NCBI RefSeq assembly: GCF_000526495.1 | Contig: NZ_JAGE01000001.1 | Span: forward strand, 1,486,001-1,550,000 | DNA from: Ruminiclostridium josui JCM 17888 | GTDB taxonomy: Bacteria > Bacillota > Clostridia > Acetivibrionales > DSM-1351 | DNA: 64,000 bases | Direction of reading: 5' to 3' | Shown: one piece after another, positions 31,473 through 64,000 of the stretch | How positions within the stretch are numbered: position 1 is the stretch's first letter | Layout of the letters: each line of letters opens with the position of its first letter | Position numbers and translations under genes: made by a program | Notes under the pieces: model-generated | Databases searched by the model: none | What the model was told of the DNA's origin: nothing | What the model saw: the letters and a program-made list of their open reading frames with translations, nothing else

Positions 31473-32486
31473 TTAAAAATGCGCCAATTTATCAAGCAAA
31501 TCAGTTACTAATTTTTTTTCCGTCTCAACCATTTTCTCTAAACCGGCGATTACCATTTCAACAAGCCTTCTATTTTTATTAATATTAAACTTTATTATCA
31601 TATTTCTGAAACTAAGAGCCTTGTTTCGCAACTGGCTATAACTTTCAAGCAGATTGCTATCCCTATTTATATAGTTGTTATCAATAAGATATTCAATACG
31701 GGAAACCATAGTTTTCTTATGCTCCCAAAGTACATGCAAGGCTATCATATTACATTCTTTTTTATCCTCTTCAAGGACTGATTTAAAGTTGTTTATTATC
31801 TCCCTGTAAACAGACATACCGAAAATCACATTTTTTGTAGGATTATTTATTATTCTAAGCCTTTCCGACGTATTTCTAGAAAGCAAAAAGTCCTCCAATA
31901 AATTTTTAACATTTACTATATCGAAATCGAAGGATGGTAAGTAAGAATTTTCATCCTTTGGCCTTAATAGTATCACATCATTTCTTCTTTCAACAGAATG
32001 ATTGTATGAACTTTCAAATTCCGAAAAACTGATACATGATTCATTATATGCATATTTATCAGTATATCCTATAATTTTTAGTATCTTTCTACTTAAATCA
32101 TATCCAAATATCATGTTATCATGCCTAAAATGTCTCTTTTGATATGCCTCTCTATCTGGAATATAAAACTCATCCAGATACGTGGTTACGTAATACCCCA
32201 TATCAATACTGCTCACAATAAAATCAATGATATTGGTGTTACTTCTATGTATAAAATCTAAATCCAAGATTCTATAATCTAATAACGGATTGTAAATACA
32301 GATACCGGCAATTACAAATTTAAAAAAATTTAACGTATTATCTTCCAAAACATACTCTAGCTGTATATAGTTACTTAAGAACCATTTTTGAAAATCTTTA
32401 TGATCAATTGATGCCGTGAGAGAATAGGCATGATGTAAATAGCAATATATCGGAGGCTTAACAATCTTCAGATTCTTTATACACAT
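31473..32486 (-). CDS. BtrH-like acyltransferase/C39-like protein (A)
   Basis: The 337-residue protein looks like the BtrH family. BtrH in butirosin synthesis moves an acyl chain from an acyl carrier protein onto an aminoglycoside amine. Here I see a Cys near the N-terminus (IYCYLHHAYSL), then TTYLDEFYIPDR, and the H-x-x-HD-x4-GYD region (RHFRHDNMIFGYDLS) followed by a helical C-terminal half. A second protein at 45295 shares this plan, although overall identity is low. It is the last gene of the cluster, 46 bases after the GT4 gene. RBS TAGGAG. A role in attaching a carrier-bound acyl group to an amine is inference. Confidence 0.6.
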   Translation of the reverse strand: MCIKNLKIVKPPIYCYLHHAYSLTASIDHKDFQKWFLSNYIQLEYVLEDNTLNFFKFVIAGICIYNPLLDYRILDLDFIHRSNTNIIDFIVSSIDMGYYVTTYLDEFYIPDREAYQKRHFRHDNMIFGYDLSRKILKIIGYTDKYAYNESCISFSEFESSYNHSVERRNDVILLRPKDENSYLPSFDFDIVNVKNLLEDFLLSRNTSERLRIINNPTKNVIFGMSVYREIINNFKSVLEEDKKECNMIALHVLWEHKKTMVSRIEYLIDNNYINRDSNLLESYSQLRNKALSFRNMIIKFNINKNRRLVEMVIAGLEKMVETEKKLVTDLLDKLAHF

Positions 32487-32532
32487 AAATATTATCTCCT
32501 AATTTTAAGTTCTTACATTTGCTAACAAGATA

Positions 32533-34233
32533 TTACGATAATTTTAAGTCCGTTAGCCCTTGCTTTACTAACCACATAACACTTCTTCGGATTAAACTCT
32601 TGTGGTATTTCTCACTATATATCGTTAATATTTCAGCTAATGATATTCCCTTTGTTCCTACATCTTTAACCGTTTTCAGAATCTCCGGTGCTAACTGGAA
32701 CTCAAGCAAATGATTTTCAATAGAATAGTGAAACGGCAAAGGGCTATTCCCTTCAAGTACACTTTCCCCGTCCCTAGTTATATGAATAAAAGTACTATCA
32801 TTAATAAAATACGTTGGATATCGAGAAAAGGCCTTACAGTATATAGGTTGTATAAACCTCAATTTGTTACTCATATCCTGTTCAGGTGTTATAGTTCTTA
32901 AAAAACATAATTCTTCCCAAAGTTTCTCATATTCTTTGATTACGCTCTGCCAACTAAACTTTTCCCTTGCTCTTCTAAACGAATTCTCAGACATTTGTTT
33001 GCAAAGCTGTGGGTTATCTAACAATGTCTGTATCGCGTTTTCGTAGCGATTTAAGTCAACAACAACAGACTGACTTAATAAAAGATGATGAAGTCCTACT
33101 CTATGCATTGGTTCCGATGGAAACAATGCTGCTTCCTTAATATCTTCATCACAATTTGCCCAGTAAGTCGGAATTAAGAAGCCTGTAACTCCATCTTCTA
33201 CAGTGTCTCTATAGCCATCCCAGTCAGAAACAACCTGGGGTACTCCACAAGCCATAGCTTCAATAGGAGTTATACCAAATGTCTCCTGAACATTATCAAT
33301 TGGTGAAACAAAAACATCTGCTGTCGAAAACAATAAATGGCGTTTTGAAACATCATTTTGAGAGATAATTTTTACCTTGTCACTTATACCTAATTCAGCT
33401 ATATATTTTTCTATTTGTGGTATCATGGGCATATTTTTTCTATCATGTCCTGCAAGAACAAATAATAACTTCTTATCCGGGTTTTTTTCAAGAAGACGCT
33501 TATACACCAAAAGAGCGGGCAATAAGTCAGCTTTATCATACGCAGATATCCTTCCTACCCATAGTAATACAAATGCATCTTCAGGTATTCCACATTCCCT
33601 GCGAACTGCTACTTTGTCCCTCGGAGTAAACTTCTCAGTATCAACCCCAAGTGGGATAATATCTAATCTACCTTCATATTTGATATCACTGTTATATACT
33701 TCATTTAGTGAATTGCTTATATTATCAAGCATTTCTTTCACTACGTGTTTTACCGCCCTTGATGTACATATCAGAGAATCATATTTTCTAAACGGCATAA
33801 GTAGCTTCATTAAATAAAAACTTTCAATATAATTTGGATAACTTGCTCCATGAATAGTATATGTTATAGGAATTTTAAAATCAGTAAAAAACTCCCTCAA
33901 AAATACCAACGGTATAAATTCCATGCTTACATTATGTAACAAATCTATATTAGCTTTCTTTTGATACTGTAGGACATCAAGTTCAGAAAAAATACTTAAT
34001 TTAGTTTTTGCTTTTCCCCGACGACTCAAATTATTATACTTTCTCTCAATAGCACTTTTTTGAAACTGTAAAGAATCACATATACATGTAATCTCTTCTA
34101 AGGAACTATGGCTTATCAAAGCTTTGAATACATCATCAACAGCAATATCATATCCGAAAACGGAATCGAGGACAGGCATAACTCTAAATGCATTCCCCAT
34201 AATTCCTAAATTGTTACATAATTTCTGTTGCAT
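32533..34233 (-). CDS. Glycosyltransferase family 4
   Basis: The 566-residue GT-B enzyme has LLWVGRISAYDKADLLPAL at the start of the donor domain and the E-x7-E segment in FGITPIEAMACGVPQVVSDWDG, followed by DTVEDGVTGFLIP. The first 190 residues hold the acceptor domain. The last 120 or so residues, after WEELCFL, are an extension without recognised motifs. The ATG overlaps the 3' end of the peptidase-transporter gene by 20 bases, with RBS CAGGAGG. It probably glycosylates the cluster product or a precursor; the sugar is unknown. Confidence 0.82.
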   Translation of the reverse strand: MQQKLCNNLGIMGNAFRVMPVLDSVFGYDIAVDDVFKALISHSSLEEITCICDSLQFQKSAIERKYNNLSRRGKAKTKLSIFSELDVLQYQKKANIDLLHNVSMEFIPLVFLREFFTDFKIPITYTIHGASYPNYIESFYLMKLLMPFRKYDSLICTSRAVKHVVKEMLDNISNSLNEVYNSDIKYEGRLDIIPLGVDTEKFTPRDKVAVRRECGIPEDAFVLLWVGRISAYDKADLLPALLVYKRLLEKNPDKKLLFVLAGHDRKNMPMIPQIEKYIAELGISDKVKIISQNDVSKRHLLFSTADVFVSPIDNVQETFGITPIEAMACGVPQVVSDWDGYRDTVEDGVTGFLIPTYWANCDEDIKEAALFPSEPMHRVGLHHLLLSQSVVVDLNRYENAIQTLLDNPQLCKQMSENSFRRAREKFSWQSVIKEYEKLWEELCFLRTITPEQDMSNKLRFIQPIYCKAFSRYPTYFINDSTFIHITRDGESVLEGNSPLPFHYSIENHLLEFQLAPEILKTVKDVGTKGISLAEILTIYSEKYHKSLIRRSVMWLVKQGLTDLKLS

Positions 34234-37200
34234 ATATACCTCCTGTTTTTTCCTTATTTTTGATATTTACTTCATCCACTTTTCCCATATTCAGTTTTAT
34301 TATTTTGTCTGCAGTATGGAAATAATGGTCATCGTGTGTAATAGCAATAACACATTTATTAGCCTTTTTCAGTTGAGGCAAGAGAGATTCATAAAAATAC
34401 TTTTTAAATAACGGATCTTGATCTGCAGCCCATTCATCAAATAGAAATACACCTCTATCTTCCAAATAGCTTACGAGAAGTGCAACTCTTTTTCTTTGTC
34501 CAGTTGATAATTGAATGGTACTAAATTCACCATCTTTTACACCTAATTTTTTATCAATTTGTAGCATTATTAAGAGTTTATCTGTTTCTTCCACCTTTTT
34601 TTCGTAGTCTATTCCGTATAGCTTGTTAAACAAATAATAATCACTAAAAACTGTTGAATAATATTCACCAAGCTCTCTATACCCCATTTTTTTATTTTCG
34701 ATTATTATGCTTCCGCTGTCTGGCTTATAAAGGCCTGTTATAAGCTTTGCCAGAGTTGTTTTTCCGCTACCGTTTCCTCCGGTAATAAACGTTATTTCTC
34801 CTGCCTGAAAAGCTAAGTTTATAGGCCCCACAATAAATTTATTATCATCATTACAATATGTATACTTTACATTATCTAATCTGATATTTACCCCTTCACT
34901 GCTTATTATATCTTTTATATTTTTATTCACTTCTTCAATTAGTTTTATAGTATTATCCTGAGGTAACTTTTCAATTAACTCGTTTATCCTTTTCCAACTC
35001 ACCCTGATTCTGAATATTTCAGGTATATTGTCTAACACTGAGTGGATAGGATTGGTCATATATAAGAACACAAAAATGTATGCCCTTAATGAGTCTGTCT
35101 GAATGTTATCAAATATTAGAGGAAAGACAAAGGCAACGGCACCTATTACGAAAGTGAATAAAAGTTCTCCAATAACAAAGACGTTTACAAATTTATCTGA
35201 TGCAGCAATATTCTTTTCCTTATATTCAGCACAACAACTTTCCATGTCATCTCTAAAATCTTTGCGTTTTGCTACTTTAAGAGTTAATTCCTTAAACCCC
35301 TGTATAAAATCATTTATGAATTGTATGAAAACATTTTGAATATCCCTGGTTTTCTCCCAAAGCTTATTTGCAGATTTTCCAATAATATAATATAATCCTG
35401 CTGCTATGATAATTATCAACACTGACAATAGTAAGCCAAAAATATTAATTGTCCCCAAGTAAACAAAGCAACATAGCAGTGTAGCAATTCCTGTCAACGC
35501 TCCTATAGTCACACCGGGAAGCCTGCTTATAGTCTCTGTATCGTTATTTAATCCTGTATGAATTTTACCGCTCTCAATCTTTTCAAATTCATAATAGGGC
35601 ATTCTCAGAGTCTTTTCAATAAGCTCAATCCTCTTATCGTAAATTATGTTATTCATTAACCTTATCATTTCTTTTCTGATAAGCTTTTGTCCGAATACAT
35701 ATAACATTATCCCAAGGAAAAAATAAAATAACAGTCCACTTTGGATTGCATTCTTTCTATTTAATGCTTCATTAATTACAAAAATAATAAATGCATTCCC
35801 AAAACCACTTATGAAGCTTAATACAATCAATGGAAAAAATGGTTTATCTTTTTTCTTTGGAAAAAGGTTATCAAGTTGAAAATAAGCCAGAAAAACAATT
35901 GATGTAGCAAATAATGAAATAGTACAAGGTATAAAACTAGACGGCGCCCATACAGAAACAAAATTCCAGTTTAAGCCATTATAAAGAACTCTTGGAATGA
36001 TGTATAGGCAATAACCCAGACCAACAATAGAAATAAGTGTAATAAATAAACCTATATAATTTGCTTGCTTTGTAGAAATAACCTTTCTTTTTTTACGAAT
36101 CAGTTCTAGTACAAAAATAACTAAAAAAACTACAGTAAGTACGAATAATAAAATAGAAACACAAAATATTGTGAATGCAATATTATCTATAGACAACATC
36201 ATATCAACAGTCTTATTATAAAGCTTTCGGTCCATTATAATATCCATAATTCCCCGAGCAATAGCCCCGGTAAAATCAGAATTCAAATTTGCAAGAACAG
36301 CTACACCTACTTTATCTTCTGGTCTAAATGTGATATATGATGCAAAGTTTGGATTTGAACCTGCATGACTTATTTCCCCTGAACCCTTTTGGTAAATTTC
36401 CCAACCTGCGGCATATGAAGAACCTCCATCAGTTGGACTTACCGTCCTATCTGGAATATGAGACTTCTTAATTAAATCTATATATTTTTCCGGAAGATTA
36501 TATGAAAGCATCTGAATTTTCAGCCACTTTTCCATTTCACCAGAGTCCATTATAAAGTATCCAGCAGGAGTATTTCCTCTAAAAGTAGGTGCATAGTACT
36601 CTTGTGCTCTTAAAAATCCCGGTTTATACCCTGTTGCCATGTTTGCTTTTGAATATGCCTCATGTCTGTCTAATAGAGTTCCATTAAGTCCCAATGGGTT
36701 CAATATGTTCTTCTGAATAAAGTTTTCATAAGAATCTCCGGTTACCTTTTCAATTATAAATCCTAATATATCATAGTTAATAGTTGCGTATAGAAAGCTT
36801 TCTCCCGGATAGTGTTCTAATTCCTGGTCTTCCAATGTTCTTACACAGTTTTCAAGAGCTTTATCACCCGTATCCACGGAAATTTCCCCAATAGATTTAA
36901 AAGGTATTCCAGATGTATGATATAAGCATTGACGAAGCGTAATATCCATAGATTTTCCTTTATACTTCGTACTGAACCAAGGTATATATTTACGTACTGG
37001 ATCATCCAGATTAATCAATCCTTCTCTTTCCATATATAATATGCCCAAGCCTGTAAAAGCTTTGGAAGTAGAACCAATTTCAAATAGTGTTTTATCTGTT
37101 ACAAATTCTTTTTTATCTAAATTTTTATATCCAAAGCTTTTTTTATAAACTGTTTTTTCTCCATCTACAATAATAACTGATATTCCCGGTATTTTTCCCT

Positions 37201-37363
37201 TCTTCATTGTTTTACTGATATGCTCTTCAATCTTCTGAATTTTATTATCAGTAAAAAAGTTCTCCATTTTATCTGCCAATGCAATATTGGGTAGTATAAC
37301 ATTTACAAGTATCATTGCAAAAAACACTATTAATTTTGTTGCATTATACATTATTCTTTTCAT
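34214..37363 (-). CDS. Prodrug-type serine peptidase fused to ABC exporter (ClbP/ZmaM-like)
   Basis: This 1049-residue protein joins three parts. After a signal/anchor helix (10-30), residues about 40-390 are a beta-lactamase-fold hydrolase with S98-T-S-K101, a Tyr in FLYATINYD and HAG in SHAGSNPNF, as in class C enzymes and ClbP. Three membrane helices follow, as in ClbP. Then come ABC-transporter helices and an ATPase with GGNGSGKTT, LSTGQRKRV and FDEWAADQDP, the last typical of SyrD/PvdE cyclic peptide exporters. ClbP removes N-acyl-D-Asn from precolibactin; the zwittermicin protein ZmaM has, as I recall, the same peptidase-transporter fusion. The next gene upstream is a C-A(Asn)-T-E module, which fits a cleave-on-export role. 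Resistance to beta-lactams is unlikely. Confidence 0.85.
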   Translation of the reverse strand: MKRIMYNATKLIVFFAMILVNVILPNIALADKMENFFTDNKIQKIEEHISKTMKKGKIPGISVIIVDGEKTVYKKSFGYKNLDKKEFVTDKTLFEIGSTSKAFTGLGILYMEREGLINLDDPVRKYIPWFSTKYKGKSMDITLRQCLYHTSGIPFKSIGEISVDTGDKALENCVRTLEDQELEHYPGESFLYATINYDILGFIIEKVTGDSYENFIQKNILNPLGLNGTLLDRHEAYSKANMATGYKPGFLRAQEYYAPTFRGNTPAGYFIMDSGEMEKWLKIQMLSYNLPEKYIDLIKKSHIPDRTVSPTDGGSSYAAGWEIYQKGSGEISHAGSNPNFASYITFRPEDKVGVAVLANLNSDFTGAIARGIMDIIMDRKLYNKTVDMMLSIDNIAFTIFCVSILLFVLTVVFLVIFVLELIRKKRKVISTKQANYIGLFITLISIVGLGYCLYIIPRVLYNGLNWNFVSVWAPSSFIPCTISLFATSIVFLAYFQLDNLFPKKKDKPFFPLIVLSFISGFGNAFIIFVINEALNRKNAIQSGLLFYFFLGIMLYVFGQKLIRKEMIRLMNNIIYDKRIELIEKTLRMPYYEFEKIESGKIHTGLNNDTETISRLPGVTIGALTGIATLLCCFVYLGTINIFGLLLSVLIIIIAAGLYYIIGKSANKLWEKTRDIQNVFIQFINDFIQGFKELTLKVAKRKDFRDDMESCCAEYKEKNIAASDKFVNVFVIGELLFTFVIGAVAFVFPLIFDNIQTDSLRAYIFVFLYMTNPIHSVLDNIPEIFRIRVSWKRINELIEKLPQDNTIKLIEEVNKNIKDIISSEGVNIRLDNVKYTYCNDDNKFIVGPINLAFQAGEITFITGGNGSGKTTLAKLITGLYKPDSGSIIIENKKMGYRELGEYYSTVFSDYYLFNKLYGIDYEKKVEETDKLLIMLQIDKKLGVKDGEFSTIQLSTGQRKRVALLVSYLEDRGVFLFDEWAADQDPLFKKYFYESLLPQLKKANKCVIAITHDDHYFHTADKIIKLNMGKVDEVNIKNKEKTGGIYATEIM

Positions 37364-37376
37364 TTATTAATCACCT

Positions 37377-40300
37377 TTATAAAAATAATAAATCCAGCTC
37401 ATCTTGTAACAAGTCTATAGTCTCAAAATCTGATGGCGTAAAACTTACACTTTCTTTACTTGAACAATGCTCAATTATTTTAGTTATGCTATCCATATAA
37501 AGTTCTGCGAATCTCTTTATACTATCCTTTTTAAATTCTTCTTTGTTATATATAAATGTTACTTTTAAGCAGTTGTCAATTACCATAGCGTTTATTTCCA
37601 CTAAACATGTAAATTGATTTTCAGTGGCTGTATCAATACTTATATGTCCATTTGATATACTAAAGTATTCTGTTTCCGATATTCCCGTCATATCACCTAA
37701 ATAATTAAATCTTATAAACCTTTTACCATTACTTTGTATCTGTGGAGACATATATTTTAATACTCCAAACCCTATACCTTTGTTGGGTACCTTTCTTAGC
37801 TGTTCCTTAACGTTTTTAATGGTTTGTGGAAGTTCTTCTCCATTGATTTCAAAAGCAATAGGATAAATACTAGTAAACCATCCCACAGTTCGGGTAATGT
37901 CTACTTCATCAAATATTTCTTCACGGCCATGTCCTTCAACCTCAATAACAATACTGTTCTTCCCTGTATATTTATTTATAGCTAATGAAAGGGCCGTTAT
38001 TAATAAGTCTTTTGTTTCGGTATTATAAGCTCGGTTGGCTTTTGAAAGTAACAGCTTTGTATCCTTCTCGGATATTACATCAGATAAAGCAATGCATTCT
38101 CCTTGATAAGCCACAGCAGTAATATTATCCGTGGGAAATGAAAAATTCTTCTCTAAAATACTATTCCAGTATTCTGTTTCCTGAACTGCTTCACTTTCAC
38201 TAAATTGGATTAGAGCCTCGGACCATTTCTTATAAGAGCATGTCTTTTGCGGGAACTCAAAGTTAATATTACCTTCTTTAGCTCTTAATAGATTCTCTAG
38301 ATCTTCTAGAATAATTCTCCACGACACCCCATCAACCACAAGATGATGCGCTGTAAGCAATAATTTTTTTCCGGCAGGCCCTAAATCAAATACACAACTG
38401 TTAATCAACAAATCCTTTTCTATGTTAAAACCCGATTTGATTTGCTCTTCAATACTTACGATTTTTTCACATTGTTCCTCATGGGAAAGGTTTGATAAAT
38501 CAAATACTTTTATCCTACTAGATGATTCCATATGTCGATTATTATAGAAGAGTTCATTTGTTAAAGGGTTATAATTAAGTCTTAAAGAATCATGATATTT
38601 AATAATTTGATCTATGGCACTTTCAAGTTCTTTCACTCCTACTTGTTTCTTAAGTTCAAGCATAACTGACTGATTATAATAGTTTTGATTTATAAATTCT
38701 CTGGAAAAAAACCACGAAACTATTGGAGTTAATTTTAAATTTCCACAGCATAATTCGTTATCAGACTTATTCAAGTTTCTATGGTCTTTCACCAATGAAG
38801 CTACTTGTTTTAAAATTGGATTTGCCAAAATATCCTTTACTCTTACTTTCAATCCTATATTGTTTAGTTTTGCAGCAATTTGAATTGCCTTTATAGAGTC
38901 ACCACCAAGGTAATAGAAATTATCTTCCTCTCCAACTGAATTTAATTCTAGAACCTCACTTACAACTTTATATATAATCTCTTCTAAACCGCTAACTTGG
39001 ATATTTTTCACTTCTTGGTTAAAACTATTAAAATAAGGTTTAGGTAGCATTTCAAAATCTATTTTGCCATTTGATGTCAACTGTATTTTGTCTATCCAAA
39101 CAATGTATTGGGGTATCATATAGCTTGGTAGGCTAACCATAAGAAATTCCCTTATATCCTCTTCAGATATCCTTTTATCTTCAACAATATATGCGCATAA
39201 AACTTTATTTTTCTGTTTATCCTCTTGTATTGTCACAATGGCATCTTTAACATATTTGTGAAGTAATATAGCTTTTTCTATTTCTCCAAGTTCTATTCGA
39301 TACCCCCGTAGCTTTACCTGCCGATCTGCTCGTCCTACATATTCTATTATATTGTCATCATTAAATCTCCCTAGATCCCCTGTCTTGTACAGACTCTTAC
39401 CATCTATAAACGGATTAGCTATAAATCTTTCTGAGGTAAGCTCAGGCATATTTATATACCCTCTGGAAACCCCATCACCTGAAATAAAAATTTCGCCTGT
39501 TGCTCCAGGGGGTACAGGCTCAAGTTTGCTATCAAGTAAATATATCTGAACATTATGTGCAGGTTTACCGATAGGTACCGAAGTCCCTTGGTCGGCATTG
39601 GGATCATACTTATGAATCATACAACCGACAACCGTCTCAGTAGGACCATATTCGTTATATATTTCTATATCCCCGTTAAAACTGTCATATACCTCTTTTG
39701 CAACTTTAACTTTTAAGTCCTCTCCACCAACAATAAATCTTTTCACAGAACTCCCTGAATTATCAATATCCTTCAAAAGACATAAGTGAGATGGTGTTAA
39801 CTTAATAACTGTCGATTTGTTTTCCCTCATTATTCGGTATAAAACATACTCATCATCATCATTGCTATAAACTTCAATCCTACCTCCGCAAATTATAGGT
39901 GTAAAAATAGATGTAACAGTAAGATCAAAGGCTAAAGATGAATAGAACGGGAATACTTCCTTTTCACCTCTTGTATACATCTGTTTAGCCCACCAGATAT
40001 AATTGACCAATCCACGATGCTCTACCATTGTACCTTTTGGTTTTCCGGTAGATCCTGAAGTATAAATTACATATACTAAATCGTCAGGTTCATTTAAGAA
40101 ATCAAGATTGCATGTCTCTCCTGTATATATTTCCGCTAATTCCAAATTAATAACTTGACCTTTATAATCAAGTTCTTTTGCCATATCGCCATTTGTAAGG
40201 ATAATTGATATCTTGCAATCATCCAACATATATTTGATTCTATCCTCCGGGTACTCAGGATCAATAGGCAGATACGCCGCACCTGCTTTTAATATTCCGA

Positions 40301-41864: not shown

Positions 41865-41931
41865 TACTATCTCCTTTTGAATAATTATAATAATATTCTT
41901 AAAATTGTAATTTACTCAAAATAGGTTATTA

Positions 41932-42363
41932 TTAGGCAATACTATTTTTATTAATTAAGAATGCTACAATATCAGTAAAGTTTATATTATTAAAATCAAA
42001 CATCATTAATGCCGGTGAAAACTGAATGTGCTGATATCCTCTATACCTTTCCTGAATATTGCCTTCTGTAAACAAAACAGCATCAACTTTATAGGACATA
42101 CCATAAAAATCTTCAGCTGTTATGATAGAAGTATTTATATCCGGAATGTCGGTTGATATAACGATAACTGATACATTTTCTTTTGATATGTTATTAAAAT
42201 CTAAAGTATCAATAAATAACACATTGTTCGTCTTTAGTTCTTCAAGTTTTTCAGATACACTATAGCCCCAAATAAGAAATTCCTTTTTCAATCCTTCTTT
42301 AAATTGAACAACTTTTTCAGAGTCAACACCCGAGTGATTTAATATATAAAATATATGGCACAT
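41932..42363 (-). CDS. Small cluster protein of unknown function
   Basis: I do not recognise this protein of 143 residues. It starts MCHIFYILNHSG, has no membrane segment, and shows alternating hydrophobic strands (NVLFIDTLDF, VSVIVISTD, VDAVLFTEG) compatible with a small alpha/beta fold. Start at 42363 is supported by TAGGAGGAAC; a longer frame would begin with TTG. It lies between the GT9-like and NRPS genes in the same direction. Confidence 0.55.
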   Translation of the reverse strand: MCHIFYILNHSGVDSEKVVQFKEGLKKEFLIWGYSVSEKLEELKTNNVLFIDTLDFNNISKENVSVIVISTDIPDINTSIITAEDFYGMSYKVDAVLFTEGNIQERYRGYQHIQFSPALMMFDFNNINFTDIVAFLINKNSIA

Positions 42364-42390
42364 TAATTTGTTCCTCCTACCCAATATACA

Positions 42391-43881: not shown

Positions 43882-43941
43882 AGTATATATCCCCCCTCTA
43901 GTTATACACAGGAACTTTTATAAAAAATCAACTTGACTCTA

Positions 43942-45279: not shown

Positions 45280-45294
45280 ATGACACTCCAAATT

Positions 45295-46308: not shown

Positions 46309-46342
46309 CGATGTCATCTCCTTAATTATATTAAAAGAAATG

Positions 46343-47776: not shown

Positions 47777-47827
47777 TACTTATAACTCCTATTATTAATT
47801 TATAAAAATATAAAATACTCATGAAAT

Positions 47828-48538: not shown

Positions 48539-48580
48539 ATTAATTCCCCCTTGACTTGATTTAAGATACTTTTTTGATCA

Positions 48581-49624: not shown

Positions 49625-49653
49625 TACAATTCCCCCTAAAACTTTTGCAATTC

Positions 49654-50670: not shown

Positions 50671-50698
50671 TATTATCATCCTTCCAAATTAATTCTTT

Positions 50699-52063: not shown

Positions 52064-52075
52064 AATTACCTCCAC

Positions 52076-55631: not shown

Positions 55632-55694
55632 ATTTAATAACCCATCGTGCAAACCTTTCTGAAAAATTTTAATGGAATCTAGAATTATTGAAAA

Positions 55695-56546
55695 TCACCT
55701 CTGCCAATCACATCTCTGACAAAGGTGTAGCTTTCTTTTTCCTTTCGCAAGGTCTATATATGCTTTGGTAAATGTTTCTTTATTCATAATTTGTTCAAGT
55801 GATTCTTCGTATAGATTTCCAAATGAGTGCATATGTTTCCAATCTAAGCAGCAAAGTGTCAAGTCTCCTGTGCACGAAACTGATATATCGTTCAACAATG
55901 CAAAACAGCTTTTAGTACTATTGACTGGTTCTCTATTATACATGTGTTTTCTGGAATCTAAAATTGAGAAAAACACACGGTATGGAAATTCGGCATTCAG
56001 GCTGCATAACCTTTTATATTCTTCCATACTATATGCAGACGCCATTAGTAGCCATAACTTTGCTTCGTAAAGTTCATCTATCATTATCTGGTTCAAATAG
56101 AAGCCATTTGTCAGTATATGTGTCTTTGCATTCGTGCATTTTTCTGCAGCATAATCAAGAAATTTAAATAATCTTGGATCAATCATAGGCTCATTATCAA
56201 TATGGAATGCGATAACTCCTCTATAATCAATTCTTGAAAGCTCGTCAATAACCTTATATACCACCTTAGCAGAAAGTATAACTTTCTGCTTTTCCCATGC
56301 TGTAGGACATCTTTTATGAATATAAGAGTAGACGCACATATTAGATAGCTCAAATGAAATTCGTCTCATTTGTCTATAAATAGACGTAGATTCCATATCC
56401 TCAATCTTTATATTTCTAGACAAAGTGCTATTTATAAATTTTTCTTCAGCCATATAATACGAATTTTTATAATCTTTCGGTATCTCTCCATCATTTCTTT
56501 CTACTTCTGGCATATATGGTTTGTTTTTGTTGTTTGCGACTTCCAT
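55695..56546 (-). CDS. Radical SAM-like protein with noncanonical cysteine motif
   Basis: The 283-residue protein reads like a radical SAM/SPASM enzyme over its length: ISFELSN at strand 1, FHIDNEPMIDPRLF at the GGE position, THILTNGFYLN, and a C-terminal SPASM-type set (CTGDLTLCCLDWKHMHSFGNLYEESLEQI, LCQRCDW). But at the expected CxxxCxxC it has MCVYSYIHKRCP: only two cysteines, nine residues apart, with a His between. Either the cluster is held in another way (Cys-His-Cys), or the protein no longer performs SAM cleavage. RBS GGGGGA. It lies just downstream of the two carrier protein genes. Confidence 0.7.
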   Translation of the reverse strand: MEVANNKNKPYMPEVERNDGEIPKDYKNSYYMAEEKFINSTLSRNIKIEDMESTSIYRQMRRISFELSNMCVYSYIHKRCPTAWEKQKVILSAKVVYKVIDELSRIDYRGVIAFHIDNEPMIDPRLFKFLDYAAEKCTNAKTHILTNGFYLNQIMIDELYEAKLWLLMASAYSMEEYKRLCSLNAEFPYRVFFSILDSRKHMYNREPVNSTKSCFALLNDISVSCTGDLTLCCLDWKHMHSFGNLYEESLEQIMNKETFTKAYIDLAKGKRKLHLCQRCDWQR

Positions 56547-56583
56547 ACAATCCCCCTAAGAAGAATCTTAATTATTGATAGCA

Positions 56584-56847
56584 TTATTTAGCTGTTTGAA
56601 ACATTTCATATATTCTTTCAACAACGAAGTTTAAGTCATCAATATTATCAATAGTCAAGTCATCATCATCAAATTCAATGTCAAATTCTTGTTCAAGTGA
56701 AACTAAAAACTTAATGAATGTAATAGAGTTAAATAAATCACCAACTTTTGTGTCAAAGCTGATTTCACCACAATTTTCGAAATAATTACCGTTCTGTAGT
56801 ACATTTCTTACTTTTTCTTTAATTACTTCGTAATCCATAATTGACAT
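56584..56847 (-). CDS. Free-standing acyl carrier protein (2)
   Basis: An 87-residue acidic helical protein of the phosphopantetheine carrier family. The attachment Ser lies in DLFNSITFIKFLVSLEQEF, where the usual GxDSL reads LFNSI, followed by the acidic helix III region FDDDDLTIDNIDD. The ATG overlaps the stop of the preceding carrier gene (TAATG). An in-frame ATG three codons later has better spacing from AAGGAGGAG and is the alternative start. It probably carries an intermediate for the neighbouring PLP, radical SAM, U32 or BtrH-like enzymes. Confidence 0.82.
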   Translation of the reverse strand: MSIMDYEVIKEKVRNVLQNGNYFENCGEISFDTKVGDLFNSITFIKFLVSLEQEFDIEFDDDDLTIDNIDDLNFVVERIYEMFQTAK

Positions 56848-57104
56848 TACTCCTCCTTATTATTTAATTCTTTTTCAACAAGTGAAACTATATCCTGTAC
56901 ATTACCAAATAGCTCATAATTAATCTGCGAATCATCAAATACAATATCAAACTCTTCCTCAATTGCCACAACAATTTTGATAAAGTTTAATGAATTTACT
57001 CCTAACCCACGGAAATCATTATTAAGTATTTGTGCACCACTTAAATCTTTTTTATCAGAGTACTCCTTTAAAATACTTACTACTTTCATCTCTACATTGT
57101 TCAT
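56847..57104 (-). CDS. Free-standing acyl carrier protein (1)
   Basis: This 85-residue carrier protein has the attachment Ser in LGVNSLNFIKIVVAIEEEF, where Asn replaces the usual Asp before Ser (GVNSL for GxDSL). The following helix has the acidic character typical of ACPs. RBS GGGGGA, seven bases upstream. It overlaps the second carrier gene by one base. Two adjacent free carriers suggest that a starter or side chain is assembled off the megasynthase, as in butirosin, and later transferred. Confidence 0.85.
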   Translation of the reverse strand: MNNVEMKVVSILKEYSDKKDLSGAQILNNDFRGLGVNSLNFIKIVVAIEEEFDIVFDDSQINYELFGNVQDIVSLVEKELNNKEE

Positions 57105-57121
57105 AAATAATTCCCCCTAGT

Positions 57122-58504
57122 TCAGTATTTTTGTTCTAAATATTCATTGACTTTGTTTGTTAATGAATAAAAACTTTCATTAAAAAAAGCAGCTGTTATC
57201 CTTATCCAAAAAGGAGTTGACTCCTTTTCTGATTTATGATTATTAAACATAATCTCCGGTAAAAGTGTAATTTTTTTTTCGCGAAACAAATCTATACAAA
57301 AGATATCTTGTAAATTATAACTTGTGTTCTTAAATTTTACGCAAAAGTTATAGCCTCCTTTCAATTCCGTAATTTCTTCTATATGACGGTATAATTTGTC
57401 CTTAAACCATTCATAATTTTGGTAAATAGTTTTATAATTTTGACTGATTTCTAATTGAAATTTAGTAATTTCATTATTAATATCACAATTTTTAATAATA
57501 GGCTTTATAAATTCCGTATAAATTTCATTACCGGAAGTTTCAAGAATACTGAACCTGAATAATTTTAATATGGTATTAGTATCTTGAATATTTTCTTTTT
57601 TTGAACTATTTATGTATAGAATCCTGTATAGCAAATCAGTTATTATCGGTACCACATACACACTCGGTGGACAGAAATAGCTAACCTCGTATATATACTT
57701 TAAATAGCTGGTGATTTCTTTATTAGCCAATATATATCCAATCCTGGCACCCGGTAAGCTTCTTGTTTTTGAGATACTGTTAATAATAACTGTATTCTCC
57801 CAATAATCAGCTTTATTTACGATTTTGTTTATTGAAATAAAAGAATATATATCAGCAAACTCGTCCATCTGTATCTTATCTATCAGGAGCATTGTATTCC
57901 ATTTTTTGCAGATTGCTATCATTTGAGACAGTTCAGTTTCTGAGTACACCTCACCTGACGGATTTAATGGCAAGGTTAGTATTACCAACTTCGGTTTATG
58001 ATGCTCCATTTCTTTCTCAAATTCATGTAGATTAGGTGCCACCCTGTTTTTTTCTTTAGATTTTACTGTAATATTATTGATCTGAAAACGGTTACAACAT
58101 TCATAAAAAAGATAATAATTCAACCCTAAAAGCATAACTGTTGAATTTGGATAGCTGTAAGAATAATATTCCATAAATGATGTTATTGCTGCAGTAGCAC
58201 CCACAGTAACGCAGACCTCTTGTGACCAAGCATTATGTATTGAAAACTCTTCATTTGCCAAATACATTTCATATAACAAAATTACTTCTTTAAGCACAAG
58301 ATTTCCGTCGATGCCCGAATAATTTTTTACAAACCTATTACTTTCTATCTCTCGTATAAAATTATCCGTATATAATGACGGAGGCAATAGCTGGTTTATC
58401 CCTGATGATAGATTATTTCTTAATGTACCAGATGTAAAATTTATAAGTGAGGTCAATTTGCTATTTCTATCATTTCTTTCCTTGATATACTTTAACATAT
58501 CCAA
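57122..58504 (-). CDS. PLP-dependent class I/II aminotransferase
   Basis: This fold-type I PLP enzyme of about 460 residues has VTVGATAAITSFMEYY at the phosphate-binding turn, TLPLNPSGEVYS (the NPxG motif), LLIDKIQMDEF carrying the Asp that pairs with the PLP ring nitrogen, and the Schiff-base Lys in NSISKTRSLPGARIGY. Most aspartate-aminotransferase-like enzymes share this plan. The start is probably TTG at 58504, seven bases from GGGGGA; ATG at 58498 is the alternative. It may make an amino acid or amine for the cluster, or act on a carrier-bound substrate. Confidence 0.8.
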   Translation of the reverse strand: MDMLKYIKERNDRNSKLTSLINFTSGTLRNNLSSGINQLLPPSLYTDNFIREIESNRFVKNYSGIDGNLVLKEVILLYEMYLANEEFSIHNAWSQEVCVTVGATAAITSFMEYYSYSYPNSTVMLLGLNYYLFYECCNRFQINNITVKSKEKNRVAPNLHEFEKEMEHHKPKLVILTLPLNPSGEVYSETELSQMIAICKKWNTMLLIDKIQMDEFADIYSFISINKIVNKADYWENTVIINSISKTRSLPGARIGYILANKEITSYLKYIYEVSYFCPPSVYVVPIITDLLYRILYINSSKKENIQDTNTILKLFRFSILETSGNEIYTEFIKPIIKNCDINNEITKFQLEISQNYKTIYQNYEWFKDKLYRHIEEITELKGGYNFCVKFKNTSYNLQDIFCIDLFREKKITLLPEIMFNNHKSEKESTPFWIRITAAFFNESFYSLTNKVNEYLEQKY

Positions 58505-58539
58505 GTTTGATTCCCCCAATGCTGTCGTACTTTGAAAAA

Positions 58540-61500
58540 CTACTGCAATTCTTCTCTATTTTCAATTATATCTAAAATTATATTTTTATAACTTCTAAGT
58601 AATTCAGCAACATAATCTTCCGATAATAGGGATTTGTCATACTGCGCAACGACTCTATAATTAGCATAGGGTTCAATATAAACTCTCAAAGGAACATTTA
58701 CATAGCTTTTTTCTTCTTCAAGTTCAATACTTATATCCAGTTCTTTGATTCCTACACTTTTTGGAAAATTTAAATATACTAATGTTTTGGTGTATACTGA
58801 TTCTTGTAATAATTCGATAGGTATATTACACCAGTGTGAAATTTGGCTTACTGTTACATGTTCAAAATTCCGCAGCTTTAAATTGTTTTCTTGAATTTTT
58901 TTCAACCATTCCACCAAATTTGTCTTGGATACTGCTATACGTAATGGTAATACATTTGAAAACAGTCCTACAACTTTATCAATACCTGGAATACTAGTTG
59001 GACGCCCTGAACATATTGTGGATATTATAACGTCATCTCTTTCTTCTTTATTACTATGCAGTATTGCCCATGCTCCTAAGAATAAGGTATAAACTGTTAA
59101 GTTATTTTGGCTCGTAAATTTTTTAATATTATTTAATTCACTTTCATTTATATTTATTGAATATTCACTTGGTTCAATTGAACCTTTAACTTGATACTTT
59201 GCAGAATAGTTGTTAGTATCAAATTTAAAGTTCTGAAATACCCTCCCCCAAAACGCCCTAGCATCCTCATCTTTTTGTGTTTTCAGCCAAGAAATATAAT
59301 CCATATAAGAACTCAAATTTATATAATTAATTTTCTGTTGAGTTACCAGCGACTTGTATGTATCTAATAATTCACCAAACATTAATCCTGAACTCCATCC
59401 GTCGAATAAAGAATTCAGATATTTTATAATGAGTTTGTGTTCTGACTGGCTTACTTTTATCAAAATTACTTTCATCAATGGATAAACAGTTGTGTCAAAG
59501 CTTTGCATTTTTTCTCTTTCCAAATACTCTTTGGAGCGCTCAAGCAACTCGTCTTTATTAACATCTGTGAAATCTACTTCTTCAAAGAATGTGCCTACTT
59601 GACCATTAATCACTTGGAGTGGGTTTTTTAGCCTCCTCCATAGAATTGTAGTTCTTAATATAGGATGCCTATTTACTATAATATCCCATGCTCTTTTAAA
59701 ATCAGCAACATTAATATTACCGTCTATTTTATATGACAATATTGAGATATCGTTACCAGTACCTTTGTAATTTATATTTTGAGAAAGAATTCTTTCCTGC
59801 ATGGGTGACAATGGATAAATGGCCTCAATATTTGGGGCTTTTTCAAATAGCTCTTTAGCTTTTAATCTATCTGATTCATGATAAATTAACGATAGACTTT
59901 CACTTATAAACCTGTTATTTTTAAGGCCCATAAAAATGTCATGCTTAATGCTAGTTACATCTGCCGGCTTAAATACATTTTTAAAATGAAAGCAACCTTC
60001 CTGAACTAATTCATAACAACATTCCTGTACTGCCTTAGCAAAAGAAGCAATTTCATCTACTGTATGGGCAGTAGATATGAAACATGTAGCGCCTTCCCAC
60101 AAATAGAAACCTTTCTCTATCAACTTGTAGAATAAAAATCTCAATAATGTAGTTTCTTTATCAATTTTAAAAATAAATAAAGAGCCGAAATGTGCAATTT
60201 TAAGCGGTATTTCACATCTTTCAAAGTAGGAATTAAGGTAATTGGCCAGTAATGAAGTCTTTTCGTTCAAGTCTTCCTGTATTGCATTTCCGCCCTTCTT
60301 AATTAATTCCAAAGTTGCTTTAGCTGCAACCATGGCAAGAGGATGATGGCAGAATGTTCCTCCAGTGTGTGCAAGAAAACCGCTTGGAGCCGAATCATCA
60401 TGATAATTCCATGTTCCACCATCGACGCGGTCCATGAATTTGGACTTACCGGCAAAAACACCAATAGGCAGTCCTCCGCCTAATATTTTACCGTAAGCTA
60501 CTATATCTGCTTCAATATTAAAAAATGCCTGTGCTCCACCAATGTTTATTCGAAAACCTGTTATTATTTCATCAAATATAAGAGCAATCCCAGCATCAGA
60601 TGTTATTTTTCTTAGATTAAGTAAGAATTCTCGCGGCTGTAAGTCAGGGGTCCTGCTCTGTACAGGCTCTACTAAGACCGCCGCTAACTCATCTGCATGT
60701 TGTTTAATTCTTTCAAGAGACTGCTCATCTCCATAGTCTAAAATGATAACATCATCAACCATATTGTAAGGAGTACCCAAACTTAATGGAATAGCTTTTT
60801 CATTTAGGCTTGTAATATCTTTTAAGGCATATACACCATCAAACGTTCCGTGGAATGAACCTGAGAACAATACTATCTTATCTTTACCAGTGGTTGCTCT
60901 CGCTATTCTTACTGCATTCATAATTGCCTCTGTACCCGAATTGCAAAAAGCTACTCTTTCTACCCCAGTTATTTCTGATATCATTTCGGCTACTTCTCCG
61001 GGTGATGTAACTAATGAACCCAATATAATTCCGTTATCTAGTTGGTTTTGTATTGCCTTTGCTATTTCAGGATTATTGTAGCCAAATAAGTTAACACCAA
61101 ATCCCATTGCAAAATCAACATACTCGTTTCCATCAACATCCCACATTTTCGAGCCTTTTGCTGCCTTAGCAAAAATAGGGTATACTAATTCCTTCCATGG
61201 TTTGCTAAATCCCTGTGTCATCCTACCATTTGCCCATTTTTTTCTGTATTCTTGTGCTAAATCCTTAGATCTTTGTGTCTTCTTCACGTAGTTTTTAATA
61301 AACTTGTCAATATAAGCTTTTTGATTTTCTGTTAATTCAAAGGCTGATTTTACAATAAATTTTTGAAGTAAGCGATTATCATCATTTTTTGGTGCTCTTA
61401 TAGTAGTTTTGTTATGTATATTAGGTACACTTTTATTAATCGAATTTGATGTAGGGTTAGCGCCTTTCAGTAGCTGAAGCTGTTGCGACATAATTTCAAG

Positions 61501-63849
61501 TTGGGTTTTTATTATCTCTTCAAATCCGTTCCTTCCCTCAACTTTGAGGTTCTCTACAACAGTTCCGGGGTTCTCTTCTGTACAAGTATCTAACGAAGTT
61601 TCATCTTTAGTATCAACTTGAAAAGGTTCCTTTATGGTATAAGAAGGATTTTGTTCTTTAGGCTTGTTTGCACAAATGTATTTTGAAAGGTTTTTTAAAG
61701 TATTTATCTCACCAAACAGCTTTTCCGCAGATATATCCATATCGAAATTATTCTTTATTTCTTGCTTAAGCTGTATTATGGAAATTGAATCTATTCCTAA
61801 CTCAAAAAAATTAACGTTTTCATCAACTTCTGCTATTTCCATTTCAAATAAACTAGCTACAAACCTTTTGAGTTCAGTCAATATCTCATTCTCTTCATCA
61901 ACATTATTAATTAAATGTGTTTGTTCCATAAATAACCTTTCTTTACTTTCGACTTTACATTGAAGATTTCTATTCTCAGTTATTTTCAGCCAGCACCTTT
62001 TTTTCTCAAATGGGTAGAGAGGCGTACTAACTTTTATTAAGTATTCTCCATCGTGTATCAGTTTCCAATCTAATTCTGTCCCGGTAACAAATTTTTGTGC
62101 TAACTCAATCATGTATTCCGTGTTTATATCTAAAGTCTTCTCACCCTTTAATTGAGAAATAGCTGTTACGGGTTCACCTTTTAAAGAACCAAAGTAAATT
62201 CCTAATTTTTTATTGGTAATAAATTTATTTCTCGTTATATACTCAAGCTTTGAAATAAAATCCTCTCTACTATCACCCAAAAGAGCTAAACGATATGTAT
62301 AATGCTCCTTTCCTTCCTGAGCTGTATAACATATGTCTCTAATATCAAAATCTTTATTTATTTCAAGAAAGTCCCGATATCTTTTTACGTATTCCATTAA
62401 TGCTACTTCTGTCTTTGCCGAAATTGGCAATAGATAACATCTTGTATCGCTAACCATGCGTTTACTCTCATTATTAACGTACTCTTCCAGAATAATATGA
62501 CAATTTGTACCGCTCAAACCAAAAGAACTAATTCCACATCTTCTTGGATTTTTACCAAAATTCTCCCATGGCTGAACCTTGTCAACAACATATACAGCTG
62601 AATTTATAAAGTTAATATTTTTGTTTGGTTCGGAAAAATTGATAGTTGGAAATAATGTGTGTGTTTTTAACCCTATTACACATTTAACCAATCCCAGTAA
62701 TCCCGCTGCGGAATCTAAGTGCCCGTAGTTTGTTTTTATTGATCCTATTCCACAAAAGTGAGCTCTAGAAGTATATTTTTTAAATGCATTTGTAATTGCC
62801 TCAATTTCTATAGGATCCCCGAGCTTTGTACCTGTACCATGAGCTTCCACATAACTTATAGTCTCCGGGTTAACATTACTATTTTCAAAAGCCTGAGTTA
62901 TTACTTTTTCTTGTGCTGATACACTAGGTGCGGTAATCCCTATAGAAGCTCCATCGTTATTGCAGGCACTACCTTTTATTACGGCATAAATGTTATCTTT
63001 GTCCCTAATAGCTTTATTAAGAGATTTAAGTACAATGGCAATACATCCTTCTCCTTGTACAGTCCCATCAGCATCATCACTAAATGTCTTAACTTTATCT
63101 GTTGGTGACGCTATATCAGGTACTTGCTCACCTTTATATCTTATTGGTTCAAGTAGCAGGTTAATCCCCCCTACAAGAGCCATTTCACATTCATTATTTT
63201 TTATGGATTGGCAGGCCAAATGAACTGCTACCAGAGCTGAAGAACATGCTGTATCAACTGATAAAGAAACACCTGTAAGGTCAAAGATATAAGCTATTCG
63301 ACTCCCTATTATAGAATCAATATTTCCGGGCCCTGCCATAATAGCCATTTCAGGTTCGATTTCCTTCACACGTTTATAGTACTCAGTTGGATAAGGATGT
63401 CCCAAAAACACACCTGTTTTTGTACCTTTTAACTTTTGTCTCGTATAACCCGCATCTTCAAAAGCATGCCATGAAGTTTCAAGAAAAAGCCTTTGTAACG
63501 GGTCCATTAAACTTGCTTCCTTTGCAGATATCTTGAAAAACGGGAAATCAAATTTATCTATTTCCGGTAAAAACGCTGCATTTATGAATTGATAGCTTTC
63601 CTTACTAACTCCTTTAAAGCCAAGATAATCATTTACATCATCCATTCTTTCCTTACTTAAGGATGAAATACAATTCGTACCGTTATACAGTACATTAAAT
63701 AACTCACTTAAATTTTCTGCATTAGATAGCTTTATTGATATACCTATAATAGCGATATCATCGCTATTGTTAATTTTCTCTAATTTTACCTTGTTAGTTA
63801 ACTCTCCAGATTTCAATTTATTTAATAACTCAAAACTTCCATTGTTCAT
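58540..63849 (-). CDS. Hybrid PKS-NRPS: KS - ACP - aminotransferase - C (AT-less)
   Basis: This 1769-residue megasynthase has a ketosynthase (about 30-455) with DTACSSA Cys202, EAHGTGT His337 and NYGHLDSAAG His377. A KS-AT-type linker and post-AT-like LYPFEKKRCW (to 620) follow, with no AT between. Then come an ACP with GIDSIS Ser688, a glutamate-semialdehyde-type aminotransferase (about 840-1285, PLP Lys1121 in AYGKILGGG), and a terminal condensation domain (about 1340-1769). KS-ACP-AMT-C is the arrangement that gives beta-amino acyl units in mycosubtilin and iturin synthases. The C domain has L1478-N-S-L-F-D-G where HHxxxDG is expected. A trans-acting AT is needed and not seen. I start at 63849, after GGTGG. 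Confidence 0.9.
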   Translation of the reverse strand: MNNGSFELLNKLKSGELTNKVKLEKINNSDDIAIIGISIKLSNAENLSELFNVLYNGTNCISSLSKERMDDVNDYLGFKGVSKESYQFINAAFLPEIDKFDFPFFKISAKEASLMDPLQRLFLETSWHAFEDAGYTRQKLKGTKTGVFLGHPYPTEYYKRVKEIEPEMAIMAGPGNIDSIIGSRIAYIFDLTGVSLSVDTACSSALVAVHLACQSIKNNECEMALVGGINLLLEPIRYKGEQVPDIASPTDKVKTFSDDADGTVQGEGCIAIVLKSLNKAIRDKDNIYAVIKGSACNNDGASIGITAPSVSAQEKVITQAFENSNVNPETISYVEAHGTGTKLGDPIEIEAITNAFKKYTSRAHFCGIGSIKTNYGHLDSAAGLLGLVKCVIGLKTHTLFPTINFSEPNKNINFINSAVYVVDKVQPWENFGKNPRRCGISSFGLSGTNCHIILEEYVNNESKRMVSDTRCYLLPISAKTEVALMEYVKRYRDFLEINKDFDIRDICYTAQEGKEHYTYRLALLGDSREDFISKLEYITRNKFITNKKLGIYFGSLKGEPVTAISQLKGEKTLDINTEYMIELAQKFVTGTELDWKLIHDGEYLIKVSTPLYPFEKKRCWLKITENRNLQCKVESKERLFMEQTHLINNVDEENEILTELKRFVASLFEMEIAEVDENVNFFELGIDSISIIQLKQEIKNNFDMDISAEKLFGEINTLKNLSKYICANKPKEQNPSYTIKEPFQVDTKDETSLDTCTEENPGTVVENLKVEGRNGFEEIIKTQLEIMSQQLQLLKGANPTSNSINKSVPNIHNKTTIRAPKNDDNRLLQKFIVKSAFELTENQKAYIDKFIKNYVKKTQRSKDLAQEYRKKWANGRMTQGFSKPWKELVYPIFAKAAKGSKMWDVDGNEYVDFAMGFGVNLFGYNNPEIAKAIQNQLDNGIILGSLVTSPGEVAEMISEITGVERVAFCNSGTEAIMNAVRIARATTGKDKIVLFSGSFHGTFDGVYALKDITSLNEKAIPLSLGTPYNMVDDVIILDYGDEQSLERIKQHADELAAVLVEPVQSRTPDLQPREFLLNLRKITSDAGIALIFDEIITGFRINIGGAQAFFNIEADIVAYGKILGGGLPIGVFAGKSKFMDRVDGGTWNYHDDSAPSGFLAHTGGTFCHHPLAMVAAKATLELIKKGGNAIQEDLNEKTSLLANYLNSYFERCEIPLKIAHFGSLFIFKIDKETTLLRFLFYKLIEKGFYLWEGATCFISTAHTVDEIASFAKAVQECCYELVQEGCFHFKNVFKPADVTSIKHDIFMGLKNNRFISESLSLIYHESDRLKAKELFEKAPNIEAIYPLSPMQERILSQNINYKGTGNDISILSYKIDGNINVADFKRAWDIIVNRHPILRTTILWRRLKNPLQVINGQVGTFFEEVDFTDVNKDELLERSKEYLEREKMQSFDTTVYPLMKVILIKVSQSEHKLIIKYLNSLFDGWSSGLMFGELLDTYKSLVTQQKINYINLSSYMDYISWLKTQKDEDARAFWGRVFQNFKFDTNNYSAKYQVKGSIEPSEYSININESELNNIKKFTSQNNLTVYTLFLGAWAILHSNKEERDDVIISTICSGRPTSIPGIDKVVGLFSNVLPLRIAVSKTNLVEWLKKIQENNLKLRNFEHVTVSQISHWCNIPIELLQESVYTKTLVYLNFPKSVGIKELDISIELEEEKSYVNVPLRVYIEPYANYRVVAQYDKSLLSEDYVAELLRSYKNIILDIIENREELQ

Positions 63850-63892
63850 TAAAACCACCATTATCTATTTTTAAAATTTAGTACTCTAATAA

Positions 63893-64000
63893 TCAAACAG
63901 TAATATTATCAAGTAACCCAGCAAACATCTTGAAAAATTCCTCCATCTTATCCTCTCGTAAATTACAATAGCTATAACTACAATTGAATAAAATTTCATT
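63893..64000 (-). CDS. C-terminal end of a further cluster protein (condensation/epimerisation-like), partial
   Basis: On the minus strand the last 36 codons up to the window edge stay open and end with TGA at 63893. The text ILFNCSYSYCNLREDKMEEFFKMF resembles the final strand and helix of NRPS condensation or epimerisation domains, and aligns in pattern with the end of the E domain at 37377 (LKVTFIYNKEEFKKDSIKRF). Stop and next start are 43 bases apart, so it is probably the preceding gene of the same operon. The rest lies beyond the window. Confidence 0.6.
   Translation of the reverse strand, partial: NEILFNCSYSYCNLREDKMEEFFKMFAGLLDNITV

Follow-up and report, generated by a model that had tools for sequence, protein, structure and literature searches.

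We propose that a cluster of 29 genes in Ruminiclostridium josui JCM 17888 directs the synthesis of a beta-amino, sugar-bearing peptide-polyketide as an N-acyl-D-Asn prodrug, and that two U32-like proteins encoded within it, U32a and U32b, would hydroxylate a carrier-bound intermediate without oxygen. Taken as a whole, we give this proposal an even chance of being correct. Twenty of the genes lie in the 64,000-nucleotide stretch of DNA that was analysed (the window; C1:1486001-1550000 of genome G000), and the genome belongs to the genus of R. papyrosolvens, in agreement with the initial annotation of this DNA, which had placed it in an anaerobe. A prodrug route of this kind is already known. 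As far as a search of the open-access PMC literature shows, the new element is the putative U32-type oxidase; we found no report there of such an oxidase in a prodrug cluster of this type. The wider question is how strict anaerobes hydroxylate complex natural products. Few substrates are known for the U32 oxidases, which are new enzymes, and a pair of them encoded within a bounded assembly-line cluster would offer a small-molecule substrate with which to study their chemistry.

The 20 window genes (31473-63861, coordinates of the open reading frames) share the minus strand and are separated by -20 to 67 bp, so the one-directional run of about 20 genes described by the initial annotation is real. 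Past position 64000, where that annotation had suggested looking, the cluster continues with nine further minus-strand genes, up to C1:1564162 (78162 in window numbering). The total run thus comprises 29 co-directional genes over 46,690 bp (46.7 kb), and 26 of its 28 intergenic gaps are shorter than 70 bp. The window part has a G+C content of 32.2% and the extension one of 33.3%, compared with 37.2% in the left flank and 36.8% in the right. Together the 29 genes on one strand likely constitute one biosynthetic cluster. Domain calls throughout are those of Pfam and NCBIfam models.

What is the basis of the prodrug assignment? The nonribosomal peptide synthetase (NRPS) at 37377-41864 has the Pfam domain order condensation (C), adenylation (A), thiolation (T) and condensation/epimerization (C/E), in keeping with the C-A-T-E protein of the initial annotation; the E type of the last domain is assigned from its position after the carrier rather than by a dedicated model. 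The HHxxxDG motif is present in both the C and the C/E domain. The A-domain specificity code, read from an alignment, is DLTKIGEVG, which is an Asn code. Next to this starter module lies a ZmaM-type fusion (34214-37363) of a ClbP-like S12 peptidase (PF00144, 214 bits), a three-helix membrane part indicated by hydropathy peaks, and an ABC half exporter (TIGR01194, above cut-off). The S12 part aligns along full-length ClbP structures, and the protein keeps the ClbP SxxK motif (98-101), the Tyr, the NPNF stretch with the D-Asn-binding Asn, and the Trp residues of the membrane part; the position of ClbP S188 is occupied by Thr. Because the A code, the ClbP-type residues and the ABC fusion are all kept, the inactive acyl-D-Asn form envisaged by the initial annotation is well supported, and we assign the N-acyl-D-Asn prodrug route to this cluster, by sequence comparison, with high confidence.

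A C-A(Asn)-T-E starter is a common trait of the zwittermicin, edeine, paenilamicin and colibactin clusters. In comparison to these four, the cluster described here adds the U32 pair, a B12-binding radical SAM enzyme, two SPASM proteins, AsnB- and Dph6-like enzymes, glycosyltransferases and a ferredoxin oxidoreductase; none of these additions is known to occur in the four. The peptidases of those clusters, ZmaM, EdeA, PamJ and ClbP, are alike in being of the ClbP type with three membrane helices. According to PMC9889268, ClbP homologues are found in the amicoumacin, colibactin, edeine, paenilamicin, xenocoumacin and zwittermicin clusters, and ZmaM carries the same fusion of S12 peptidase and ABC half exporter.

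The two proteins that set this cluster apart are encoded by adjacent genes. The product of the first, U32a (49654-50679), matches PF01136 with 103.9 bits; the NCBIfam model for UbiU gives 62.4 bits, far under its cut-off of 440. Alignment of U32a with Escherichia coli UbiU by hhalign gives a probability of 96.8% (E 2.6e-10), and UbiU cysteines C169, C176 and C193 align with U32a C189, C196 and C208, which are invariant in 19 of 19 aligned sequences. The second protein, U32b (50699-52075), has no Pfam match at E<=0.1 and no NCBIfam match. Thus, where the initial annotation had two U32-like proteins, U32a is one by homology and U32b is U32-like by predicted fold and cysteines alone. Its predicted structure (pLDDT 88, a local model-confidence score) comprises a PilZ-like domain at about residues 6-114 and a TIM barrel at about 171-458 that by Z is nearest, by a small margin, to the U32 peptidase Mk0906. 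Four cysteines, C227, C386, C404 and C408, are invariant in all 38 members of the U32b alignment, with the spacing CXnCX17CX3C. UbiV cysteines follow the pattern CXnCX12CX3C (PMC6747719), so the order is that of UbiV and the middle spacing is X17 versus X12. We liken the working of the modelled U32b to that of UbiV, with no claim that it belongs to the UbiV family. Differences from the UbiU-UbiV system are the PilZ-like domain of U32b and the lack of any ubiquinone gene among the 29 cluster genes.

The U32 oxidases described so far introduce hydroxyl groups in the absence of O2, the oxygen probably coming from prephenate; they serve in anaerobic ubiquinone synthesis and also act on bases of RNA (PMC11574389). 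Here a dedicated pair sits inside the assembly-line operon of an anaerobe, and for this reason the pair is most simply seen as a hydroxylase of the product. By analogy with UbiU-UbiV, we judge the chances for and against an oxygen-independent hydroxylase of the cluster product to be balanced. The oxygen-independent tailoring suggested by the initial annotation is plausible. As a first guess, and a doubtful one, the target may be an aromatic ring. More broadly, and tentatively, a heterodimeric U32 oxidase may have been taken up by N-acyl-D-Asn prodrug lines in at least three genera, to serve as an O2-independent hydroxylase of carrier-bound aromatic residues, with prephenate as donor and with the PilZ-like domain docking the substrate or carrier protein. 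If true, anaerobes would obtain in this way what P450s and flavin monooxygenases provide in aerobes.

RxxxR and [DN]xSxxG are the cyclic di-GMP motifs of PilZ domains, and neither occurs in the first 120 residues of U32b, so that a PilZ-like domain without these motifs is fused to a U32-like barrel.

We next set out how the cluster could build its product. Gene order, domains, motifs, homology and co-occurrence are observed; from them we infer each of the reactions, the source of the oxygen and the position that is hydroxylated. The starter would join a fatty acyl group to D-Asn, and a lone C domain together with a second NRPS (63893-70141, minus strand, cut by the window at 64000) would add two residues. 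This NRPS has the order half C, A1, T, C, A2, T, half C, its half C domains being read from the sequence, and its A2 code is identical to the Asn code of the starter. The A1 code is DIFHLGMTF; its first six letters are those of 4-hydroxyphenylglycine domains, and its last letters differ. A ketoacyl synthase (KS) protein at 58540-63861 would add a malonate unit and aminate the beta-keto group. It contains a KS with its Cys and two His motifs, an acyl carrier protein (ACP), a class III aminotransferase and a C domain. Pfam detects in it no acyltransferase (AT) and no loading part; ten AT-domain matches lie elsewhere in the genome, and these could serve the KS protein in trans. The nearest solved relative of the aminotransferase is mycosubtilin synthase A (E 2e-134; next family, E 8e-59), and a YGKI motif stands at residues 1123-1126, its Lys being presumably the pyridoxal phosphate lysine. 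This kinship makes the beta-amino unit of the initial annotation likely, and we consider beta-amination by this protein very probable. The KS protein and mycosubtilin synthase MycA are alike in having a beta-aminating aminotransferase behind a KS and an ACP, and unlike in that the protein here lacks an AT or loading part by Pfam and has a degenerate C domain.

Eight genes follow the second NRPS on the same strand, to 78162, and encode the lone C domain, an aminotransferase, a PaaK-type ligase, a four-subunit 2-oxoacid:ferredoxin oxidoreductase and a SpoU methyltransferase. The ligase, oxidoreductase and aminotransferase would make the A1 amino acid by reductive carboxylation of an acyl-CoA; that this set feeds A1 is a prospect we place slightly below even. 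Tailoring would fall to U32a and U32b, to the radical-SAM-type proteins, to two amide-forming enzymes and to two glycosyltransferases, the U32 pair hydroxylating a carrier-bound intermediate with prephenate, by analogy, as oxygen donor. Finally, the S12-ABC protein would export the product and clip off the acyl-D-Asn outside the cell. The SpoU methyltransferase could confer ribosomal self-resistance.

Where else does the U32 pair occur? A scan of genome contigs with a single protein as query found no relative. A profile scan with the U32a alignment confirmed 96 places, the best 80 of which gave 79 named loci. In 60 of these 79 loci U32b directly adjoins U32a on the same strand, before it in 55 (median gap 17 bp) and after it in six, with one locus (L091) counted in both; some of the other 19 reflect contig ends or errors in ORF calling. 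Most of the pairs are free-standing, in Clostridium and Lachnospiraceae. Within the fetched stretches, up to 10 kb on each side of a locus, a C domain is found in five of the 79 (L024, L025, L047, L073 and L077), in L073 on the other strand, leaving four that are co-directional. All four of these have an S12 protein in the stretch, versus 2 of the 75 others (L034 and L082); the Fisher p of 1e-5 is descriptive only, as the label is post hoc and the loci are related. In L034, from a Clostridium metagenome-assembled genome, the gene immediately preceding the U32 pair is S12 peptidase-like, and the stretch lacks a C domain.

The initial annotation knew of no described cluster with this set of genes; partial relatives do exist in Paenibacillus tritici, in Cellulosilyticum ruminicola and in three other genomes of the genus. 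Those outside the genus are the P. tritici and C. ruminicola clusters, where the U32 pair occurs together with an Asn starter of identical code (DLTKIGEVG) and an S12 peptidase. In P. tritici LMG 29502 (L077, L114-L116) the starter is 44% identical, the S12-ABC protein 49%, U32a 48%, U32b 36%, an A-T-C-A(Asn)-T protein 37% and a lone C domain 35%, and a KS protein is present. This KS protein, however, has 1169 residues and no room for an aminotransferase, and P. tritici differs further in a set of A(Ser), ACP, 3-hydroxyacyl dehydrogenase, acyl-CoA dehydrogenase and AT genes, which is of the aminomalonyl type known from zwittermicin. A third U32-like protein (L077:13951-15162; PF01136, 40.2 bits) lies between its lone C domain and NRPS. 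In C. ruminicola the starter module is 39% identical and the S12 peptidase, which stands alone rather than fused to an ABC part, also 39%. There (L117-L118) the pair and the starter are accompanied by a 2-hydroxyglutaryl-CoA-dehydratase pair with its activator, a carbamoyltransferase and a 3-dehydroquinate synthase II.

Three other genomes of the genus (G002, G005 and G007) hold a whole-starter homologue (53-54%) and, next to it, an S12-ABC protein (52-54%); the 40-60 kb read around these genes contain no U32 gene. The G002 stretch (L142-L144; C1:2830000-2889999 of a 4,068,724-bp genome) is a large cluster of NRPS and polyketide synthase genes with the starter homologue, the S12-ABC protein and a B12 radical SAM protein. 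Elsewhere in R. papyrosolvens (L104-L105; G005:C63:262000-301999) and in G007 (L102-L103), a U32 pair is found with a lone A-domain-like protein, a second, distant U32-like gene and five B12-radical-SAM-like proteins, apparently another anaerobic tailoring cluster. Sequences P0002, P0004 and P0005 share 67-83% identity with U32a. Since three relatives of the SPASM protein SPASM2 (64-70%) come from contigs of the same three lengths, the cluster described here is probably present in at least three more assemblies. The combination of U32 pair, Asn starter and S12 peptidase would provide a genetic hook for mining anaerobe genomes for prodrug antibiotics.

Several results weigh against our proposal. 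The fourth UbiU cysteine, C232, has no aligned partner in U32a, in which the invariant and displaced C264 and C267 are candidates for the fourth cluster cysteine. For U32b, PF01136 is absent from all 38 alignment members (E<=0.1) and from seven of seven compact relatives without the PilZ part, and NCBIfam gives no U32 name to eight compact relatives. No Foldseek match to the U32b model reaches E 0.001; the U32 peptidase Mk0906 ranks second, at E 1.5e-3, and is the best TIM barrel by Z at 10.8, a lead of only 0.2 over the next barrel (10.6). The hhalign probability between U32b and U32a is only 26.9%, and U32b aligned directly with UbiV alone gives no match. Against UbiV, a profile built from nine compact relatives that lack the PilZ part aligns at the expected places, with 0.7 bits at C39 (E 0.026) and -3.3 bits near C180-C197, values of no statistical weight. 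The distribution tells in the same direction: the S12 proteins of the Aminicenantes (L024) and Eubacteriaceae (L047) loci are only 27-28% identical to that of the window, and among 391 genomes of the class, U32b is found in six (E<=1e-20), the S12-ABC protein in five (E<=1e-100) and both in three (G000, G005 and G007), close together only in the window's genome and far apart in G005 and G007; the first pass for this co-location scored at most four and two candidates per genome. Finally, the five NRPS-labelled rows of the 68-row U32a tree stand on five separate branches, requiring five changes of label versus a mean of 4.9 after shuffling, so the label is not clustered.

In a different account of the same genes, the prodrug cluster is as described and the U32 pair is a two-gene module of clostridia in general, which may hydroxylate RNA or a cofactor and came to lie in the operon by chance. 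That 75 of the 79 loci lack a co-directional C domain in the fetched stretch implies another role for the pair in many Clostridia, and it may be a guest here; likewise, a 50-row clade of the U32a tree (support 99/97) contains no NRPS-labelled row. All five NRPS rows, however, fall on separate branches elsewhere in the tree, and the window, P. tritici and L024 fall within one 11-row set (95/77). Moreover, the pair here is only 0-29 bp from its neighbour genes, and P. tritici and C. ruminicola repeat its association with the Asn starter and the S12 peptidase. We think a chance resident rather unlikely. A second alternative keeps the pair as an enzyme of the pathway and changes its chemistry: it would oxidize an aliphatic position of the product, such as the beta carbon of Asn or that of the polyketide, or carry out an oxidation other than hydroxylation. 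The building blocks do vary among the clusters, with A codes of Asn, Ser, Tyr-like, Gly-like and Pro-like type, and the third U32-like protein of P. tritici would also suit this account. The positions attacked by described U32 oxidases are, however, ring carbons, and the ubiquinone and RNA-base roles cited above speak against it; we consider it improbable.

A further alternative splits the run itself in two, with the core prodrug cluster adjoining an unrelated operon of SpoU, ferredoxin oxidoreductase and PaaK genes for anaerobic 2-oxoacid metabolism. The PaaK gene is isolated by gaps of 204 and 237 bp, and such genes did not turn up when the stretches from P. tritici and C. ruminicola, 60 kb each, were compared by BLASTP with the window's set. 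Against this division, the genes share one strand, and the G+C content of the extension is close to that of the window part and below that of both flanks. In addition, the best matches in ten other genomes of the genus are only 42% identical for the oxidoreductase alpha subunit and 36% for the SpoU protein, and hence, by these comparisons, the two are not core genes of the genus. We see two separate systems as a real but lesser possibility. For the proposed supply of A1 within a single cluster, the isolation of PaaK is one adverse point among several. The A1 code is not diagnostic, and the oxidoreductase scores best as a pyruvate type (PorA 461.3 bits versus PadG 307.5 bits, both under the model cut-offs), which does not favour an aromatic substrate; a phenylglyoxylate-type oxidoreductase, a direct source of phenylglycine, was dropped on these scores. 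The terminal C domain of the KS protein reads LNSLFDG where HHxxxDG is expected and, with this catalytic motif lost, is likely inactive; its homologue in P. tritici reads QHSLIDG. Of the AT-less KS-ACP-aminotransferase-C synthase named by the initial annotation, everything but a C domain with an intact catalytic motif stands.

The remaining genes of the window, all on the minus strand, encode tailoring, carrier and transport functions. Of three radical-SAM-type proteins in the initial annotation, two have the CX3CX2C motif: the B12-binding radical SAM enzyme (46343-47776; PF02310 and PF04055; motif at 203) and SPASM enzyme 1 (48581-49624; PF04055 and PF13186; motif at 26). The third, SPASM2 (55695-56546), lacks it, as do its 15 aligned relatives when the alignment is read by eye. 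In its place all 16 sequences have C-x5-H-x2-C (C71, H77 and C80), making SPASM2 a small family with the BtrN fold and a SPASM domain in which one motif is exchanged for another; BtrN of butirosin differs from it in this respect. The two proteins called BtrH-like in the initial annotation stay below the BtrH_N cut-off, in contrast to butirosin BtrH. Putative acyltransferase b, a C39/BtrH-like protein (45295-46317; Peptidase_C39_2, 24.7 bits) scores 17.3 bits against the BtrH_N cut-off of 29.7, and putative acyltransferase a (31473-32486; 337 residues), a BtrH/C39-like candidate, has no Pfam match at E<=0.001 and no BtrH_N match even at E<=5. In R. papyrosolvens, a protein encoded some 28 kb away from the U32 pair shares 50% identity with acyltransferase a, and one in the P. 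tritici stretch shares 26%.

Both amide-forming enzymes are borne out by Pfam. The AsnB-like glutamine amidotransferase (43942-45279; GATase_7 and Asn_synthase) has a listed ORF that runs to 45291 and a translation beginning LECHMCSF; an internal ATG would place Cys directly after Met, and the protein likely starts there (45279 end). The Dph6-like ATP-dependent ammonia ligase of the adenine nucleotide alpha-hydrolase type (47828-48538; PF01902, 74.8 bits) has an SGGKD loop; in ten other genomes of the genus nothing matches it at E<=0.001. Given this result and the match to Dph6, thioamide synthesis of the type carried out by CtaC, the thioamide synthetase of closthioamide (PMC6772006), is not our preferred reading of this protein, though it may still apply. 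Pfam also confirms the two glycosyltransferase genes, a GT4 (32533-34233; PF00534, 93.7 bits) and a GT9-like protein (42391-43881; PF01075, 28.6 bits versus a cut-off of 22), the latter with no match in a plasmid search; the product may be glycosylated, judging solely from these two genes. Similarly, the two free ACPs are as annotated (56584-56847, PF00550, 23.9 bits; 56847-57104, 35.1 bits), and two ABC exporters (52076-53839 and 53829-55652; PF00664 and PF00005 in each) together with the S12-ABC fusion make up the three exporter units first described. A class I pyridoxal phosphate enzyme (57122-58519; PF00155, 84.5 bits; SISKT motif) and a small protein of 150 residues with no Pfam or NCBIfam match (41932-42384) complete the set. 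Finally, we note that this anaerobe is very rich in polyketide synthases: its genome gives 48 ketoacyl-synthase matches, and contig C2 (880 kb) accounts for 25 of these.

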